From NCBI RefSeq assembly GCF_015278255.1, contig NZ_JADIJC010000008.1, positions 1-64,000 of the forward strand: 64,000 nucleotides of DNA, read 5' to 3'. Position numbers and translations under genes: made by a program. The notes beneath the pieces were generated by a model, which saw only the letters and a program-made list of their open reading frames with translations, was not told where the DNA came from and searched no databases. Positions 1 to 8,460 of this stretch are shown here, one piece after another. Numbering within the stretch: the first letter of the stretch is position 1; each line of letters begins with the position of its first letter. This DNA comes from Microbacterium hibisci (lineage in GTDB: Bacteria > Actinomycetota > Actinomycetes > Actinomycetales > Microbacteriaceae).

Positions 1-244
1 GAAACGCCCCGGCGATCTCGAAACCTCCTGGCGTTTCGTCTGCGGGCGCCAGAGCGCCCTCCGCTCAACGACCGGGAGACCCGGTGCCGGTATCGGGCCG
101 TTGAGCGAGCGAGGCGAACGTCCTCGCCCCCCCGGGTCTGGTCGTTGAGCGAGCGAGGAACGAGCGAGACGAAACGCCCCGGCGAGCCCGAAACCTCCTG
201 GCGTTTCGTCTGCGGGCGCCAGAGCGCCCTCCGCTCAACGACCG
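1..244. repeat. Palindromic intergenic repeats, two direct copies plus half-sites
   Basis: Two direct copies of a 74-bp unit lie at 1-74 and 171-244 (offset 170, two mismatches seen). Each has a core running from GCGTTTCGTCTGC through a GGGCGC/GCGCCC mini-hairpin to GCTCAACGACC. Between them, around 99-115 and 140-176, are the inverted forms (TTGAGCGAGCGAGG, then GTCGTTGAGCGAGCGAGG ending in GAGACGAAACGC). Pairing direct and inverted forms would give long hairpins. The same family recurs at 2164-2204, 2620-2745 and 8106-8460. I see no gene here; open frames across it are by-products of the repeats. Confidence 0.85.
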
Positions 245-481: not shown

Positions 482-2098
<1,617 letters not shown>

Positions 2099-2163: not shown

Positions 2164-2204
2164 GGTCGTTGAGCGAGGGAGCGCCAGCGACCGAGACGAA
2201 ACGC
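2164..2204 (+). repeat. Palindromic repeat half-element, left of the GIY-YIG gene
   Basis: This element begins GGTCGTTGAGCGAG and ends GAGACGAAACGC, the same family as at 1-244. It is in inverted orientation relative to the element that starts two bases after the GIY-YIG stop codon (2620). Confidence 0.8.
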
Positions 2205-2300
2205 TCGAGGTTATCGAATGGCCTGCAACGGTATTCCTCCCCAGCCTTGCTCCCTGCTCGGTGATTCACAGATAGCTGGACTCTTGCCCGCGTCGACGTG

Positions 2301-2618
2301 ATGCCCCGCGACACTGCAACAGTGGCGTTCCTCTATCTCCTCCGCTGTGCCGCCGGCACCTACTACGTGGGCAGCACCATCAACCTCACCCGGCGACTCG
2401 AACAGCACCGGGCAGGGGAAGGCGCCGCATACACGCGTCGCAGGCTCCCCGTCGAATTGGCGTGGCTAGGCGAGTTCGAGCGCATCGACGAGGCGTTCGC
2501 GTGGGAGAAGAGAATCCAGGGCTGGAGCCGCGCCAAGCGTGAGGCGTTCATGTCGGGAGGTCTCGAGGCCGTGACGGGGTGGAGCAAACGGGAGCGCGAG
2601 CGTCGTGCAAAGCCGTGA
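2301..2618 (+). CDS. Small GIY-YIG nuclease domain protein
   Basis: About 105 residues, essentially only a GIY-YIG domain. Visible are the opening strand FLYLLRC, TYYVGST (the YIG half), the conserved Arg in NLTRRLEQH, YTRRRLPVEL, and a downstream Glu in AFAWEKRIQGW that suits the metal-binding position. Known members nick or cut DNA; single-domain forms of this size (YhbQ/UPF0213/URI-like) mostly lack a proven role. The start could be GTG at 2298 or ATG at 2301. The gene is isolated, converges with the GMC gene, and is bracketed by inverted copies of the local palindromic repeat, the right copy beginning two bases after its stop. That placement suggests, but does not prove, a functional link to the repeats. 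Confidence 0.88.
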   Translation: MPRDTATVAFLYLLRCAAGTYYVGSTINLTRRLEQHRAGEGAAYTRRRLPVELAWLGEFERIDEAFAWEKRIQGWSRAKREAFMSGGLEAVTGWSKRERERRAKP

Positions 2619-2619
2619 G

Positions 2620-2745
2620 GCGTTTCGTCTCGCTCGTTCCTCGCTCGCTCAACGACCGGGTGCGGGGTTCCGGTCGTTGAGCGAGTGGCGTCGGTGTATC
2701 GCCGCCGGGGCGCGCGTTTCGTCTCGCTTCGCTCGCTCAACGACC
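2620..2745. repeat. Palindromic repeat cluster, right of the GIY-YIG gene
   Basis: Three half-elements: 2620-2657 (GCGTTTCGTCTCGCTCG to GCTCAACGACC), an inverted piece near 2671-2685 (CGGTCGTTGAGCGAG), and a second full copy at 2714-2745. They fill the 142-bp space between the convergent GIY-YIG and GMC genes and can fold into long hairpins, so they may also serve as transcription terminators. Confidence 0.85.
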
Positions 2746-2760
2746 GGAGCACCGGCGGGG

Positions 2761-4539
2761 TCAGACGCGGCGGCGGAGGATGAGGTCGGCGGCGACCTCG
2801 CCGATGACGATCGACGGGGCATTGGTGTGGCCGCGGATCACGGTGGGCATGACCGAGGCGTCGGCGACGCGCAGGCCCGACACTCCGCGGACGCGGAGCT
2901 CGGGGTCGACGACGGATGCGGCATCCGTCCCCATTCGAGCCGTGCCGACGGGATGATAGAGGGTGTGCGAGTAGCGGCGGAGCGACAGCTCGGCGCGCTC
3001 GGCGGGCGTCAGGTCCTCGCCGTGCTCGGGGACCACCCAGCCGCCGGTCGTGATCTCGCGGAGCGCTGCGGTGTCGAGCAGGCGTTCGCATTCGGCGATG
3101 CCGGCCCGCAGCGTGGCGGCGTCGACGCCCTCGGCGTCGGACAGGTAGGCGGGATCGATCAGCGGCGCCGCCATCGGATCGGCCGACGCGAGGCGGATGG
3201 TGCCGCGGCTGAGCGGCCGCAGCAGGATCGCGGCCACCGTGAGTCCGTGCGCGGGCATCGGGGTCAGCCCCTCGCCGACGAAGGGCCCGGGGACGAAGAT
3301 GATCTCGATGTCGGGGAGACCGTCGGGCACGCCGGCTGTATCGGCGACGGCGGTGCGCACGAACCCGTAGGCCTCTGCCGCGTTCGAGGTCAGCATCCCC
3401 TTCCGCGCGGTCAGGTACCTGACGAGCTCGACCGGTTTCGTGGCGTTGTACAGGGTGCCGCCCGCGGCGGCGGGCGCCAGGCCGGCGACGAGATGGTCCT
3501 GGAGGTTCGCGCCGACGTCCGGTGCATCGACCACCACGTCGATGCCGTGCTCGGCGAGGTGCGCGGCCGGGCCGATGCCGCTCAGCATGAGCAGCTGCGG
3601 CGTGTTGACCGCGCCGCCCGCCAGCACGACCTCGCGGCGCGCGCGGAGGTGCCGCGTGACGCCGCCGATGTCGACGTACACGCCGGTCGCCCGCGGCTCG
3701 GCCTCGTCGCTGCCGGTGGCGAACGTCACGCGCCGCACGTGCGCGTGCGTCACGACCTCGAGGTTCGGGCGCTTCTTCGCCGGCCGCAGGTACGCGTCCG
3801 CCGTCGAGGCGCGCGACCCGCGCCGCTGGCTCACCATGGTCTGCGAGAAGCCCTGGTCGGCGGGTAGATTCGGGGGGGTCAGCGGATGCCCCGCCTCGTG
3901 CGCCGCTGCCAGGAACGCGGCGGTGTGCGGCCGAGGGTCGCGCTGGTGCTCCACCGACTGCGGACCGTCCACGCCCTGAGTCGGGTCGGCGGGGTCGGCG
4001 GTGCGTTCCACGCGCCGGAAGTAGGGGACCAGGGCGTCCCACGACCACGTCGGGCCGGCGGCATCCGCCCACTCGTCGTAGTCGGCGGCGAAACCGCGAA
4101 TCCACATCAGGGCGTTGAGCGACGACGACCCGCCCAGCGTCTTGCCGCGGGGCCAGTACACGGTGCGACCCTCGAGCTGAGGCTGCGGCACGGTGTCGTA
4201 GTTCCAGTCGAACGGCCCGCGGAACAGCTTCGAGAAGGCGGCGGGCACGCGCAGCTCGAGGGAGGTGTCGGGGCCGCCGGCCTCGAGCAGCAGCACCGAG
4301 ACGTTCGGGTCGTCGCTCAGCCGGGCCGCGAGCGCAGCACCTGCCGACCCTGCGCCGACCACGATGTAGTCGGCCTCGAGACCGTCCGCACCGAATCCCG
4401 TCGCTCGGGCACGCGAACCCGGGCGACCCGACCCCGAGCCGCCGCGCCCGCGCGACCCCGAGCCGCCGCGCCCGCGCGACCCCGGGCCGCCGCGCGACCC
4501 CGAGCCGCCGCTCGCGCGGCGGCCGAACGCGGCGCTCAC
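2761..4539 (-). CDS. GMC family FAD-dependent alcohol dehydrogenase/oxidase (choline dehydrogenase-like)
   Basis: About 592 residues. It likely oxidises an alcohol to an aldehyde with FAD. After the N-terminus there is a Rossmann motif (DYIVVGAGSAGAALAARLSD), the GMC signature region YWPRGKTLGGSSSLNAL, and a C-terminal block with YHPVGTARMG and VMPTVIRGHTNAPS that holds the catalytic His. The GTG start at 4539 overlaps the stop of the upstream aldehyde dehydrogenase by GTGA, so the two are translationally coupled and probably act in sequence (alcohol, aldehyde, acid). The first ~50 residues are a Gly/Ser/Arg low-complexity repeat not needed by the fold. No other start codon lies between it and the FAD motif, so it is probably translated. 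The substrate is unknown; BetA-like choline oxidation is one option. Confidence 0.92.
   Translation of the reverse strand: MSAAFGRRASGGSGSRGGPGSRGRGGSGSRGRGGSGSGRPGSRARATGFGADGLEADYIVVGAGSAGAALAARLSDDPNVSVLLLEAGGPDTSLELRVPAAFSKLFRGPFDWNYDTVPQPQLEGRTVYWPRGKTLGGSSSLNALMWIRGFAADYDEWADAAGPTWSWDALVPYFRRVERTADPADPTQGVDGPQSVEHQRDPRPHTAAFLAAAHEAGHPLTPPNLPADQGFSQTMVSQRRGSRASTADAYLRPAKKRPNLEVVTHAHVRRVTFATGSDEAEPRATGVYVDIGGVTRHLRARREVVLAGGAVNTPQLLMLSGIGPAAHLAEHGIDVVVDAPDVGANLQDHLVAGLAPAAAGGTLYNATKPVELVRYLTARKGMLTSNAAEAYGFVRTAVADTAGVPDGLPDIEIIFVPGPFVGEGLTPMPAHGLTVAAILLRPLSRGTIRLASADPMAAPLIDPAYLSDAEGVDAATLRAGIAECERLLDTAALREITTGGWVVPEHGEDLTPAERAELSLRRYSHTLYHPVGTARMGTDAASVVDPELRVRGVSGLRVADASVMPTVIRGHTNAPSIVIGEVAADLILRRRV
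4431..4510 (-). repeat. 24-bp tandem repeat inside the GMC gene
   Basis: A run with a 24-bp period, about three units with the last one shortened, encodes Gly/Arg/Ser repeats of the type RGGSGSRG at the N-terminus of the GMC protein. The period is a multiple of three, so copy-number change keeps the frame. Confidence 0.8.
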
Positions 4540-8105: not shown

Positions 8106-8460
8106 CGTCGGTGCGGGGCGTTTCGTCTCGCTCGTTCCTCGCTCGCTCAACGGCCGGGGCCCGCCGACGGGTCGTTGAGCGGAGGGCGCTCTGGCGCCCG
8201 CAGACGAAACGCGTCGGGGCTGCCCGTCGGTGCGGGGCGTTTCGTCTCGCTCGTTCCTCGCTCGCTCAACGGCCGGGGCTCGCGCCGACCGGTCGTTGAG
8301 CGGAGGGCGCTCTGGTGCCCGCAGACGAAACGCGTCGGGGCTGCCCGTCGGTGCGGGGCGTTTCGTCTCGCTCGTTCCTCGCTCGCTCAACGGCCGGGGC
8401 CCGCCGACCGGTCGTTGAGCGGAGGGCGCTCTGGCGCCCGCAGACGAAACGCGTCGGGGC
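8106..8460. repeat. Three-unit tandem array of the palindromic repeat
   Basis: Units begin at about 8107, 8226 and 8347 (periods 119 and 121). Each unit has two halves facing each other: GCGTTTCGTCTCGCTCG to GCTCAACGGCC, then GGTCGTTGAGCGGAGG through a GGGCGC/GCGCCC hairpin to GCAGACGAAACGC. The units are nearly identical. The array fills the 432-bp space between the kynU stop (8466) and the MFS start (8033) and abuts the kynU stop codon. No gene is seen in this interval. Confidence 0.92.

Follow-up and report, generated by a model that had tools for sequence, protein, structure and literature searches.

Here we report the analysis of a small GIY-YIG nuclease gene of Microbacterium hibisci and of the repeats on its two sides. 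The window, the whole stretch of 64,000 nucleotides that was analysed, is contig 17 of a 3.97-Mb genome. The helicase and GMC oxidoreductase genes are separated by a spacer of about 660 bp, which contains, in this order, a repeat (+), the GIY-YIG gene (+), a repeat (-), a truncated repeat (+) and a further repeat (-), all of the kind called type A below (Table 1). An earlier note on this DNA had described an inverted bracket around the nuclease gene and had assigned two longer arrays to the same repeat family. Its coordinates were correct, with both copies re-located at the positions given in Table 1, and the family assignment of the arrays was borne out.

Table 1. Features of the nuclease locus and its surroundings (positions in the window).
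Feature	Position	Strand	Remarks
Type-A repeat array, both orientations	1..244		
DEAD-box helicase gene, left neighbour	482..2098	+	Named by eye; marks the site jointly with the GMC gene
Type-A repeat GGTCGTTGAGCGAGGGAGCGCCAGCGACCGAGACGAAACGC, upstream	2164..2204	+	35-nt core GTTGAG...ACGAAAC plus flanks; tail towards gene
GIY-YIG nuclease gene	2298..2618	+	106 codons from GTG 2298; start more likely GTG 2322 (98 aa)
TGA stop of nuclease gene	2616-2618	+	A single base (2619) separates stop from right repeat
Type-A repeat GCGTTTCGTCTCGCTCGTTCCTCGCTCGCTCAACGACC, downstream	2620..2657	-	32-nt core, inverted; tail towards gene
Truncated type-A repeat, head only	2672..2689	+	
Type-A repeat, 26-nt core variant	2714..2745	-	
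GMC oxidoreductase gene, right neighbour	2764..4341	-	Named by eye; part served as query
Type-A repeat array	8106..8460		32-nt (-) and 37-nt (+) variants alternate, period about 120

The 14-mer GGTCGTTGAGCGAG is present in 56 copies in the 3.97-Mb genome, and the pattern of the whole element has 224 matches; the reversed control gave 0 in both cases. On contigs C1 and C3 (1.0 Mb), the contigs with a complete element list, a 297-bp interval had an element within 120 bp on both sides at none of the positions and on either side at 0.34% of them; the limit of 120 bp was chosen with the distances in the window already known. The closeness of gene and repeats is beyond chance.

The element of this genome consists of a fixed head (GTTGAGCG), a variable middle and a fixed tail (ACGAAAC). 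Its chief variants are 26, 32, 35 and 37 nt long (among the 100 of 224 copies listed), and the elements form inverted pairs as well as arrays in which 32-mers alternate with 37-mers. When four variants were folded as DNA, the 37-mer folded well (-8.8 kcal/mol) and the 26-, 32- and 35-mers no better than shuffled sequences, so that a stable hairpin is not required by every variant. Two repeat types have covarying stems, as seen in sets that were chosen by length from the listed matches: fourteen distinct 36-nt elements of genome G078 have six stem pairs that are 96.4% preserved and show 17 double changes (5.4 in shuffled sets), with a stem covariation of 0.575 (0.123 in shuffles), and twenty-nine distinct 29-nt elements of type B keep 92% of their stem pairs, with a covariation of 0.476 (0.121 in shuffles). 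A three-base GNA loop is found in 13 of the fourteen elements of G078 and in 20 of the twenty-nine of type B. At the loci inspected, the repeats lie outside genes.

The window protein is a GIY-YIG domain (Pfam PF01541, E 2.9e-17) in which YxYxLxC...YVGST, R33, H37 and E70 are conserved (numbering from 2298). An alignment of 28 homologues, in which Y23, G25 and E70 are invariant and R33 is nearly invariant, suggests that GTG 2322 and not GTG 2298 is the start codon; we take these four residues to be catalytic. The closest solved structure is that of the UPF0213 protein BH0048 (1zg2; profile E 1.2e-20, Foldseek E 1e-5, TM about 0.5), and the closest folds to a structure model of the window protein (mean pLDDT 81) are UPF0213 and Slx1. 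Among 12 hand-chosen homologue pairs, dN/dS was 0.05-0.20 in 10 and saturated in two; the protein is therefore in use and under purifying selection.

Homologues have a patchy distribution. They were found in 40 of 99 genomes of the genus (again 40 by profile search) and, order-wide at E <=1e-15, in 19 of 297 genomes, nine of which are Microbacterium. The 51 match rows of the genus correspond to 50 loci, and every one of these was inspected. Repeated words (seen at least 3 times) fill more than 5% of the flanking 2 kb in 42 of the 50 homologue loci and in 1 of 28 control loci, which were GMC-gene loci of the genus and the order (L061-L088). The scores of loci near parAB are raised in this test by parS-like GTTTCACGTGAAAC words. 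One GMC locus with six type-A repeats (L060) was left out of the controls and would count against the association if scored.

The repeats were sorted into type A (TTGAGCG...CGAAA), type B (GAGTA...TATCGA[AG]A), type C (CTGAGCG...CGAAGG), type D (TCGTCGAGCAGAG) and type E (CTGAGCNTGTCGAAG) with patterns that were composed after inspection of the same flanks, and by these patterns exactly one type is present within 1 kb on each side in 48 of the 50 loci. The two type-less loci (L054, L058) hold broken or partial genes. Elements outside the five patterns are present in the flanks of L016, L018 and L026, for example the TGAGC...CGAA element CACTGAGCGAGCGAAGCGAGTCGAAGTG in L018 and L026. A single diverged nuclease inside the A clade (L025, genome G089) is surrounded by the fifth of these types, TCGTCGAGCAGAG...GAGACGGATCGAG.

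The partnership between nuclease clade and repeat type is well supported. On a tree of 45 proteins, from which five broken or fragmentary loci were excluded, repeat type needs four changes, the minimum for five types, compared with a mean of 21.4 after shuffling. Nine genomes carry two nucleases of different clades (G005, G012, G036, G042, G074, G076, G078, G083, G087; the second nuclease is broken in G074 and cut by the contig end in G042), and 18 of their 18 flanks hold, by the patterns, the type of the resident clade alone, a match that relatedness of the hosts cannot yield. The tenth genome with two matches is G089, whose second match is the fragment L058 without any of the five types; a further nuclease fragment, on contig 27 of G042, is outside the flank counts. 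Two intact copies of one clade were found in 0 of the 40 gene-bearing genomes, though some of these hold hundreds of repeats.

Repeat type was also predicted for held-out genes, which were drawn from the best 80 of at least 555 relatives (see below) after removal of the genes of the first set. Where the nearest protein was at least 70% identical, the prediction was correct in 22 of 24 cases, a result that says little on the other types because nearly all 24 genes are of type A. The failures were L122, which is typeless, and L154 (Agromyces), which has the wrong type; L108, with three A elements and one C element, was scored as A. Below about 65% identity, prediction from the nearest protein often failed, with a wrong type or no type as the outcome; specificity thus changes more quickly than fold.

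The abundance of repeats in the same 99 genomes of the genus agrees with this pairing. At least 10 type-A elements were found in 15 of 21 genomes with an A-clade gene and in 7 of 78 without (p 2.6e-8), at least 10 type-E elements in 12 of 12 genomes with an E-clade gene and in 16 of 87 without (p 3.3e-8), and at least 4 type-B elements in 9 of 11 genomes with a B-clade gene (broken genes included) and in 1 of 88 without (p 3.1e-10). The cut-offs were fixed after the counts were known, the p-values are optimistic because the sequences are related, and the counts favour gene-bearing genomes because the patterns derive from gene-bearing loci. In genomes with one of the clades A, E and B only, the median number of own repeats is 37, 109 and 11, respectively, and that of the other repeats is 0-4. 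Six genomes with an A gene gave few matches; in each of them the repeats near the gene have GTCGAAA-like tails, which are missed by the pattern. The earlier note had regarded an abundance of repeats in genomes without the gene as evidence against its proposal; the 7 gene-less genomes for type A and the 16 for type E do count against it in part. Chance or a GC-rich artefact was considered as a source of the matches and ruled out by the reversed type-A pattern, which gave 0 in all 99 genomes, and by the control loci (1 of 28); the reversed patterns gave at most one match per strand for type E and up to six in one genome for type B.

Genome G070, a single contig, has 174 type-E matches without an E-clade gene, genome G058 has 103, and the window genome itself (G000) has type E as a second repeat family, with 29 matches and without an E-clade gene. 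Undetected genes were rejected as the cause of such gene-less repeats: an E-clade profile searched against 19 genomes at E <=1 recovered only the known genes of other clades, plus pieces of one in G042, and no E-clade gene. Repeat families of 38 to 174 matches (34 in G065) without a detectable partner gene were noted in G070, G058, G006, G022 and G065. In genome G014, the type-A nuclease gene (L020) has two internal TAG codons, and the genome keeps 33 type-A repeats.

Inverted bracketing of the gene recurs in the genus. Once the broken L054-L058 are set aside, the types A, B, C and E are represented by 44 loci; 34 of these have an element both upstream and downstream of the gene within 1.5 kb, at a median distance of 95 bp upstream and 33 bp downstream, and in 20 of these 34 loci the nearest pair is inverted with the tails towards the gene (p 2.9e-5 against a one-in-four expectation). 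A neighbourhood that was taken, by eye, for parA/parB close to the origin is common to 15 of the 50 loci and includes five A-clade and ten B-like genes, three of the latter broken (L054-L056). Eleven more loci share neighbours within 1.5 kb in pairs or threes, and 24 of the 50 are without any detected in common. The parA/parB-like loci (L024, L028, L029, L031-L033, L035-L040, L054-L056) lie amid many parS-like GTTTCACGTGAAAC sites.

Sites without the gene were found with the GMC protein as query in 366 genomes of the genus. It matched 88 relatives at E <=1e-150, of which 31 were inspected. The helicase is adjacent to the GMC gene in 17 of the 31, and both the nuclease gene and the type-A repeat are absent at the site in 17 of 17. 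The closest of these relatives, G347 and G349, have spacers of 231 and 220 bp. As to the exact ends of the insertion, the empty spacers compared share with the window only the two gene ends and otherwise do not align. G028 and G280, in which the search showed no helicase next to the GMC gene, have type-A repeats at the GMC end without the nuclease gene.

A wider contig scan yielded at least 555 relatives. The analysis continued with the best 80, nine of which are genes already among the 50 of the genus. According to the record titles, these best 80 of at least 555 belong to Actinomycetota, Bacteroidota, Ignavibacteria, Desulfobacterota, Chloroflexi, Chlorobi, Neomarinimicrobiota and Leptospiraceae, and many are MAGs. 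Repeated words, with the parS-like words excluded in this test, fill more than 5% of the flanks in 57 and more than 2% in 70 of the 80 loci. Homologues do not regularly lack repeats, and the pairing of nuclease and repeats proposed in the earlier note is upheld by these proportions (57 of the best 80 of at least 555 relatives and 42 of 50 genus loci, against 1 of 28 controls) together with the clade-type match, the two-nuclease genomes and the genome-wide counts.

A second kind of repeat is linked to related genes. As defined in the survey of CGTC-REPs (Di Nocera 2013, PMC3733652), these have a CGTC tag, an 8-9 bp stem almost always starting with AT, a 4-5 nt loop and a CCA tail; the survey also states that no dedicated transposase seems to exist for them and that CGTC units flank none of the RAYT or IS200 genes of species with such repeats. 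Hairpins of this kind were first spotted by eye in L203-L205, where the word score is 0, 0.057 and 0. A pattern based on the published definition (CGTC, TGTC or CCTC; stem 8-9 bp; at most 1 mismatch; loop 4-5) was applied to a diverse sample of 25 loci from plasmid records, taken with some overlap from 76 listed rows (two sites are each represented twice, as L205/L224 and as L204/L226). It occurs at least twice within 400 bp of the GIY-YIG gene in 14 of the 25 loci and on both sides in 12, once in Aeromonas, and not at all in 10, including B. subtilis yazA, Salinivibrio, Variovorax and Cupriavidus; the shuffled means are 0.01-0.19. Among the 13 loci fetched after the pattern had been seen, 11 have at least two copies and 9 have copies on both sides. 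Some CCTC-variant matches (L221, L223) look like chance, and Photobacterium, which has more copies further out than near the gene, provides no support. Sphingomonas paeninsulae is a further relative without repeats. The GIY-YIG gene of Neisseria gonorrhoeae has 8 CGTC-tagged repeats within 400 bp and 0 in the outer 2 kb read; we take them for dRS3, which the survey equates with CGTC-1 (PMC3733652).

The N. gonorrhoeae records L215 (NZ_CP119142.1) and NZ_CP119140.1, of about 2.17 Mb, are filed as plasmids and look, by their size, like chromosomes. In Azospirillum lipoferum (L216:2001-2294), the GIY-YIG gene separates sufB from sufC and is flanked left and right by a pair of REPs. The GIY-YIG gene of a Planktothrix plasmid (L212) has an MmeI-type restriction enzyme on one side and a DISARM helicase on the other, with another repeat word, CTCAGAATGACA. 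A quick, unrooted tree with long branches places the CGTC-linked nucleases on one side of a split (99% SH-aLRT) and the Microbacterium and YazA proteins on the other, so that linkage to repeats exists on both sides, with YazA-like members without repeats.

In Sphingobium TomMM15, the GIY-YIG gene lies between two inverted CGTC-REPs. The gene is absent in TomTYG74 and TomTYG64 (91% and 90% identical to TomMM15 in the matched parts), where one REP-like hairpin occupies its place (CGTCACCCCGGGTCAAGCCCGGGGTGACG in TomTYG64 and a variant of CGTCACCCCGGGTCAAGCCCGGGGTGACG in TomTYG74), and TomTYG72 and TomTYG65 have neither gene nor REP at the site. These four strains and the 17 of 17 Microbacterium relatives with the same neighbours provide the unoccupied sites that the earlier note had sought. 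The TomTYG64 sequence corresponds to the outer halves of both TomMM15 REPs and equals a deletion between copies of ACCCCGGG, 8-bp repeats that are 354 bp apart; its hairpin has a CGTC tag at both ends. Among 25 sites with that stem on six plasmids, 22 have the normal tail, 2 a double tag (one of them the empty site) and 1 is a near variant. The fused REP of TomTYG64 may, with caution, be read as the scar of a loss more than as the ancestral target. A second double-tagged REP hairpin, perhaps another scar, is present on a plasmid of Sphingobium TomTYG73 (W02:C1:99435-99463). At an empty site in Shinella, gene and REPs are both absent, and the divergence is too great for exact ends.

The system resembles REP sequences and their RAYT transposases. 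According to excerpts of the literature (PMC3116915, PMC8049555), REPs are dispersed short palindromic repeats, often in inverted pairs, and the single-copy enzyme genes lie beside their own type; several types occur per genome and the closest enzymes in different genomes, repeats are more numerous in gene-bearing genomes, and they persist without the gene. The likeness drawn in the earlier note, with a different nuclease fold, proved apt: dispersed, tagged, palindromic repeats lie beside a single-copy enzyme gene of matching type, with three of the four window-genome variants folding weakly, and the enzyme is GIY-YIG by Pfam and fold and not a Y1 HUH (IS200-like) transposase. The repeat motif also differs (TTGAG...CGAAA in the window, GTAG in RAYT-associated REPs), and the position of the nuclease gene turns over, whereas RAYTs are said in the same excerpts to be vertically inherited. 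Since the enzyme class differs while the organisation is that of REP/RAYT, we regard the system as a variant of the REP/RAYT-like arrangement. CGTC-REPs, like the repeats of this system, are short hairpins that carry a tag and form inverted pairs, and they bracket GIY-YIG genes in alpha-proteobacteria and Neisseria just as the window gene is bracketed by its own repeat. The type-A element has CGTC near the variable part on one strand; compared by eye with the published definition (PMC3733652), the window repeat is without the CGTC-REP stem or CCA tail, and the window nuclease belongs to another clade than the CGTC-linked nucleases.

In sequence, fold, size and tree neighbourhood, the window protein is close to the UPF0213/YazA/BH0048 proteins (1zg2, 1ywl), from which it differs in that B. 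subtilis yazA lies between trmNF and rsmI without repeats. Free-standing GIY-YIG homing endonucleases are encoded by small genes with a patchy distribution and with occupied and empty sites. The window gene is likewise a small, patchily distributed GIY-YIG gene with occupied and empty sites; it differs in that its candidate target is a dispersed repeat and that there is one copy per clade. Work of 2025 in Nat Commun reportedly describes Ssn, site-specific single-strand GIY-YIG nucleases with NTS repeats as genomic target. The nuclease is said to act on such a repeat and on transformation and to cut only single-stranded DNA at the repeat, and the family is said to have many specificities. We presume the GIY-YIG gene of N. 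gonorrhoeae to be Ssn. The window enzyme is like Ssn in being a GIY-YIG nuclease with a probable repeated genomic target; the Neisseria and window proteins are 32% identical over 60 residues (E 5e-9) and belong to separate clades (99% SH-aLRT, in the quick unrooted tree with long branches). A literature search, with most subscription papers outside its scope, found nothing linking Microbacterium repeats to an enzyme, and full-text searches for the repeat words and for Microbacterium, palindromic repeat and GIY-YIG found no paper; in the part of a Neisseria paper covered by a term check (PMC10319059), nothing on Ssn was found.

We consider it probable, on the whole, that the nuclease is a small sequence-specific endonuclease that acts in trans and hydrolytically on the surrounding repeats, which would spread through repair. 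The target would be a REP-like repeat whose head (TTGAG...) and tail (...CGAAA) are fixed and whose middle varies, many copies forming a hairpin there, and a single-copy nuclease would act in trans on many such non-autonomous repeats, as RAYT transposases do on REPs. It would cleave hydrolytically, probably a single strand exposed during replication, repair or DNA uptake; the cut would be repaired from another copy, by which the repeats would be spread and homogenised, and repair might occasionally move the gene together with its flanking repeats. We infer that the enzyme cuts or copies the repeats and that these spread by cutting and repair. The repeat is likely to be cut by the enzyme, probably as a single strand, given the small loops of the hairpins and the reported Ssn work. 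The term 'self-mobilising unit' used in the earlier note is weak as worded, given that two intact copies of one clade occur in 0 of 40 genomes and that repeats persist without the gene.

Other explanations of the pairing were weighed against this one. It is highly improbable that an ordinary repair nuclease of the YazA/YhbQ type lies in a repeat-rich spacer by coincidence; the nearest solved structures are indeed UPF0213 proteins, and some relatives have no repeats beside the gene (B. subtilis yazA, Salinivibrio, Variovorax, Cupriavidus, Sphingomonas paeninsulae), but the clade-type match, the two-nuclease genomes and the genome-wide counts are unexpected by chance, and no C1/C3 interval is bracketed in this way. 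The gene might itself be selfish, cutting the repeat in an unoccupied copy and being copied in by recombination between the flanking repeats. Such homing is consistent with the inverted bracket in 20 of 34 loci, with the 24 of 50 loci without a common detected neighbour within 1.5 kb, by which the gene seems to change place, with the Azospirillum gene flanked by REP pairs between sufB and sufC, and with the single REP-like hairpin exactly at the empty TomTYG64 site. We nevertheless find it unlikely: none of the 40 genomes has two intact same-clade copies despite hundreds of repeats in some, the 17 empty sites in Microbacterium are without a type-A repeat, and the empty Sphingobium allele is double-tagged (exact in 2 of 25), equals an 8-bp-repeat deletion and may be a loss scar.

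Control of DNA exchange in the manner of Ssn is a possibility that we regard as rather doubtful. The nuclease would then influence transformation and recombination by cutting single-stranded DNA, whether incoming or exposed, at the repeats, which would be kept as targets and not spread by the enzyme. The N. gonorrhoeae gene amid 8 CGTC-tagged repeats within 400 bp, with none in the outer 2 kb read, fits this explanation, as does a nuclease that is single-copy per clade and under purifying selection. The window protein, however, groups in the tree with UPF0213/YazA and not with the Neisseria clade; it shares 32% identity with the Neisseria protein over 60 residues. That one genus has five types, and that copy numbers differ widely, suggests that the repeats turn over.

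We tentatively propose, as an idea that may well prove too broad, that bacteria of several phyla have, in the GIY-YIG nucleases, a second and independent class of enzymes by which tagged palindromic repeats are maintained and spread. These nucleases may be the missing dedicated enzyme of the CGTC-REPs and, in actinobacteria and Bacteroidota, also serve the TTGAG/CTGAG...CGAA repeats; the specificities of nuclease and repeat would co-evolve, with at least five pairs in Microbacterium, and the gene with its inverted flanks would enter or leave a site as a unit. The enzyme of the CGTC-REPs was left open by the 2013 survey (PMC3733652). If the nucleases are the partners, the palindromic repeats of several phyla would gain a directly testable mechanism, and in Microbacterium about five nuclease-target pairs provided by nature could be used to decipher how a 100-residue enzyme achieves its specificity. 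Nucleases of this size with sequence specificity, perhaps for single strands, would be useful tools.
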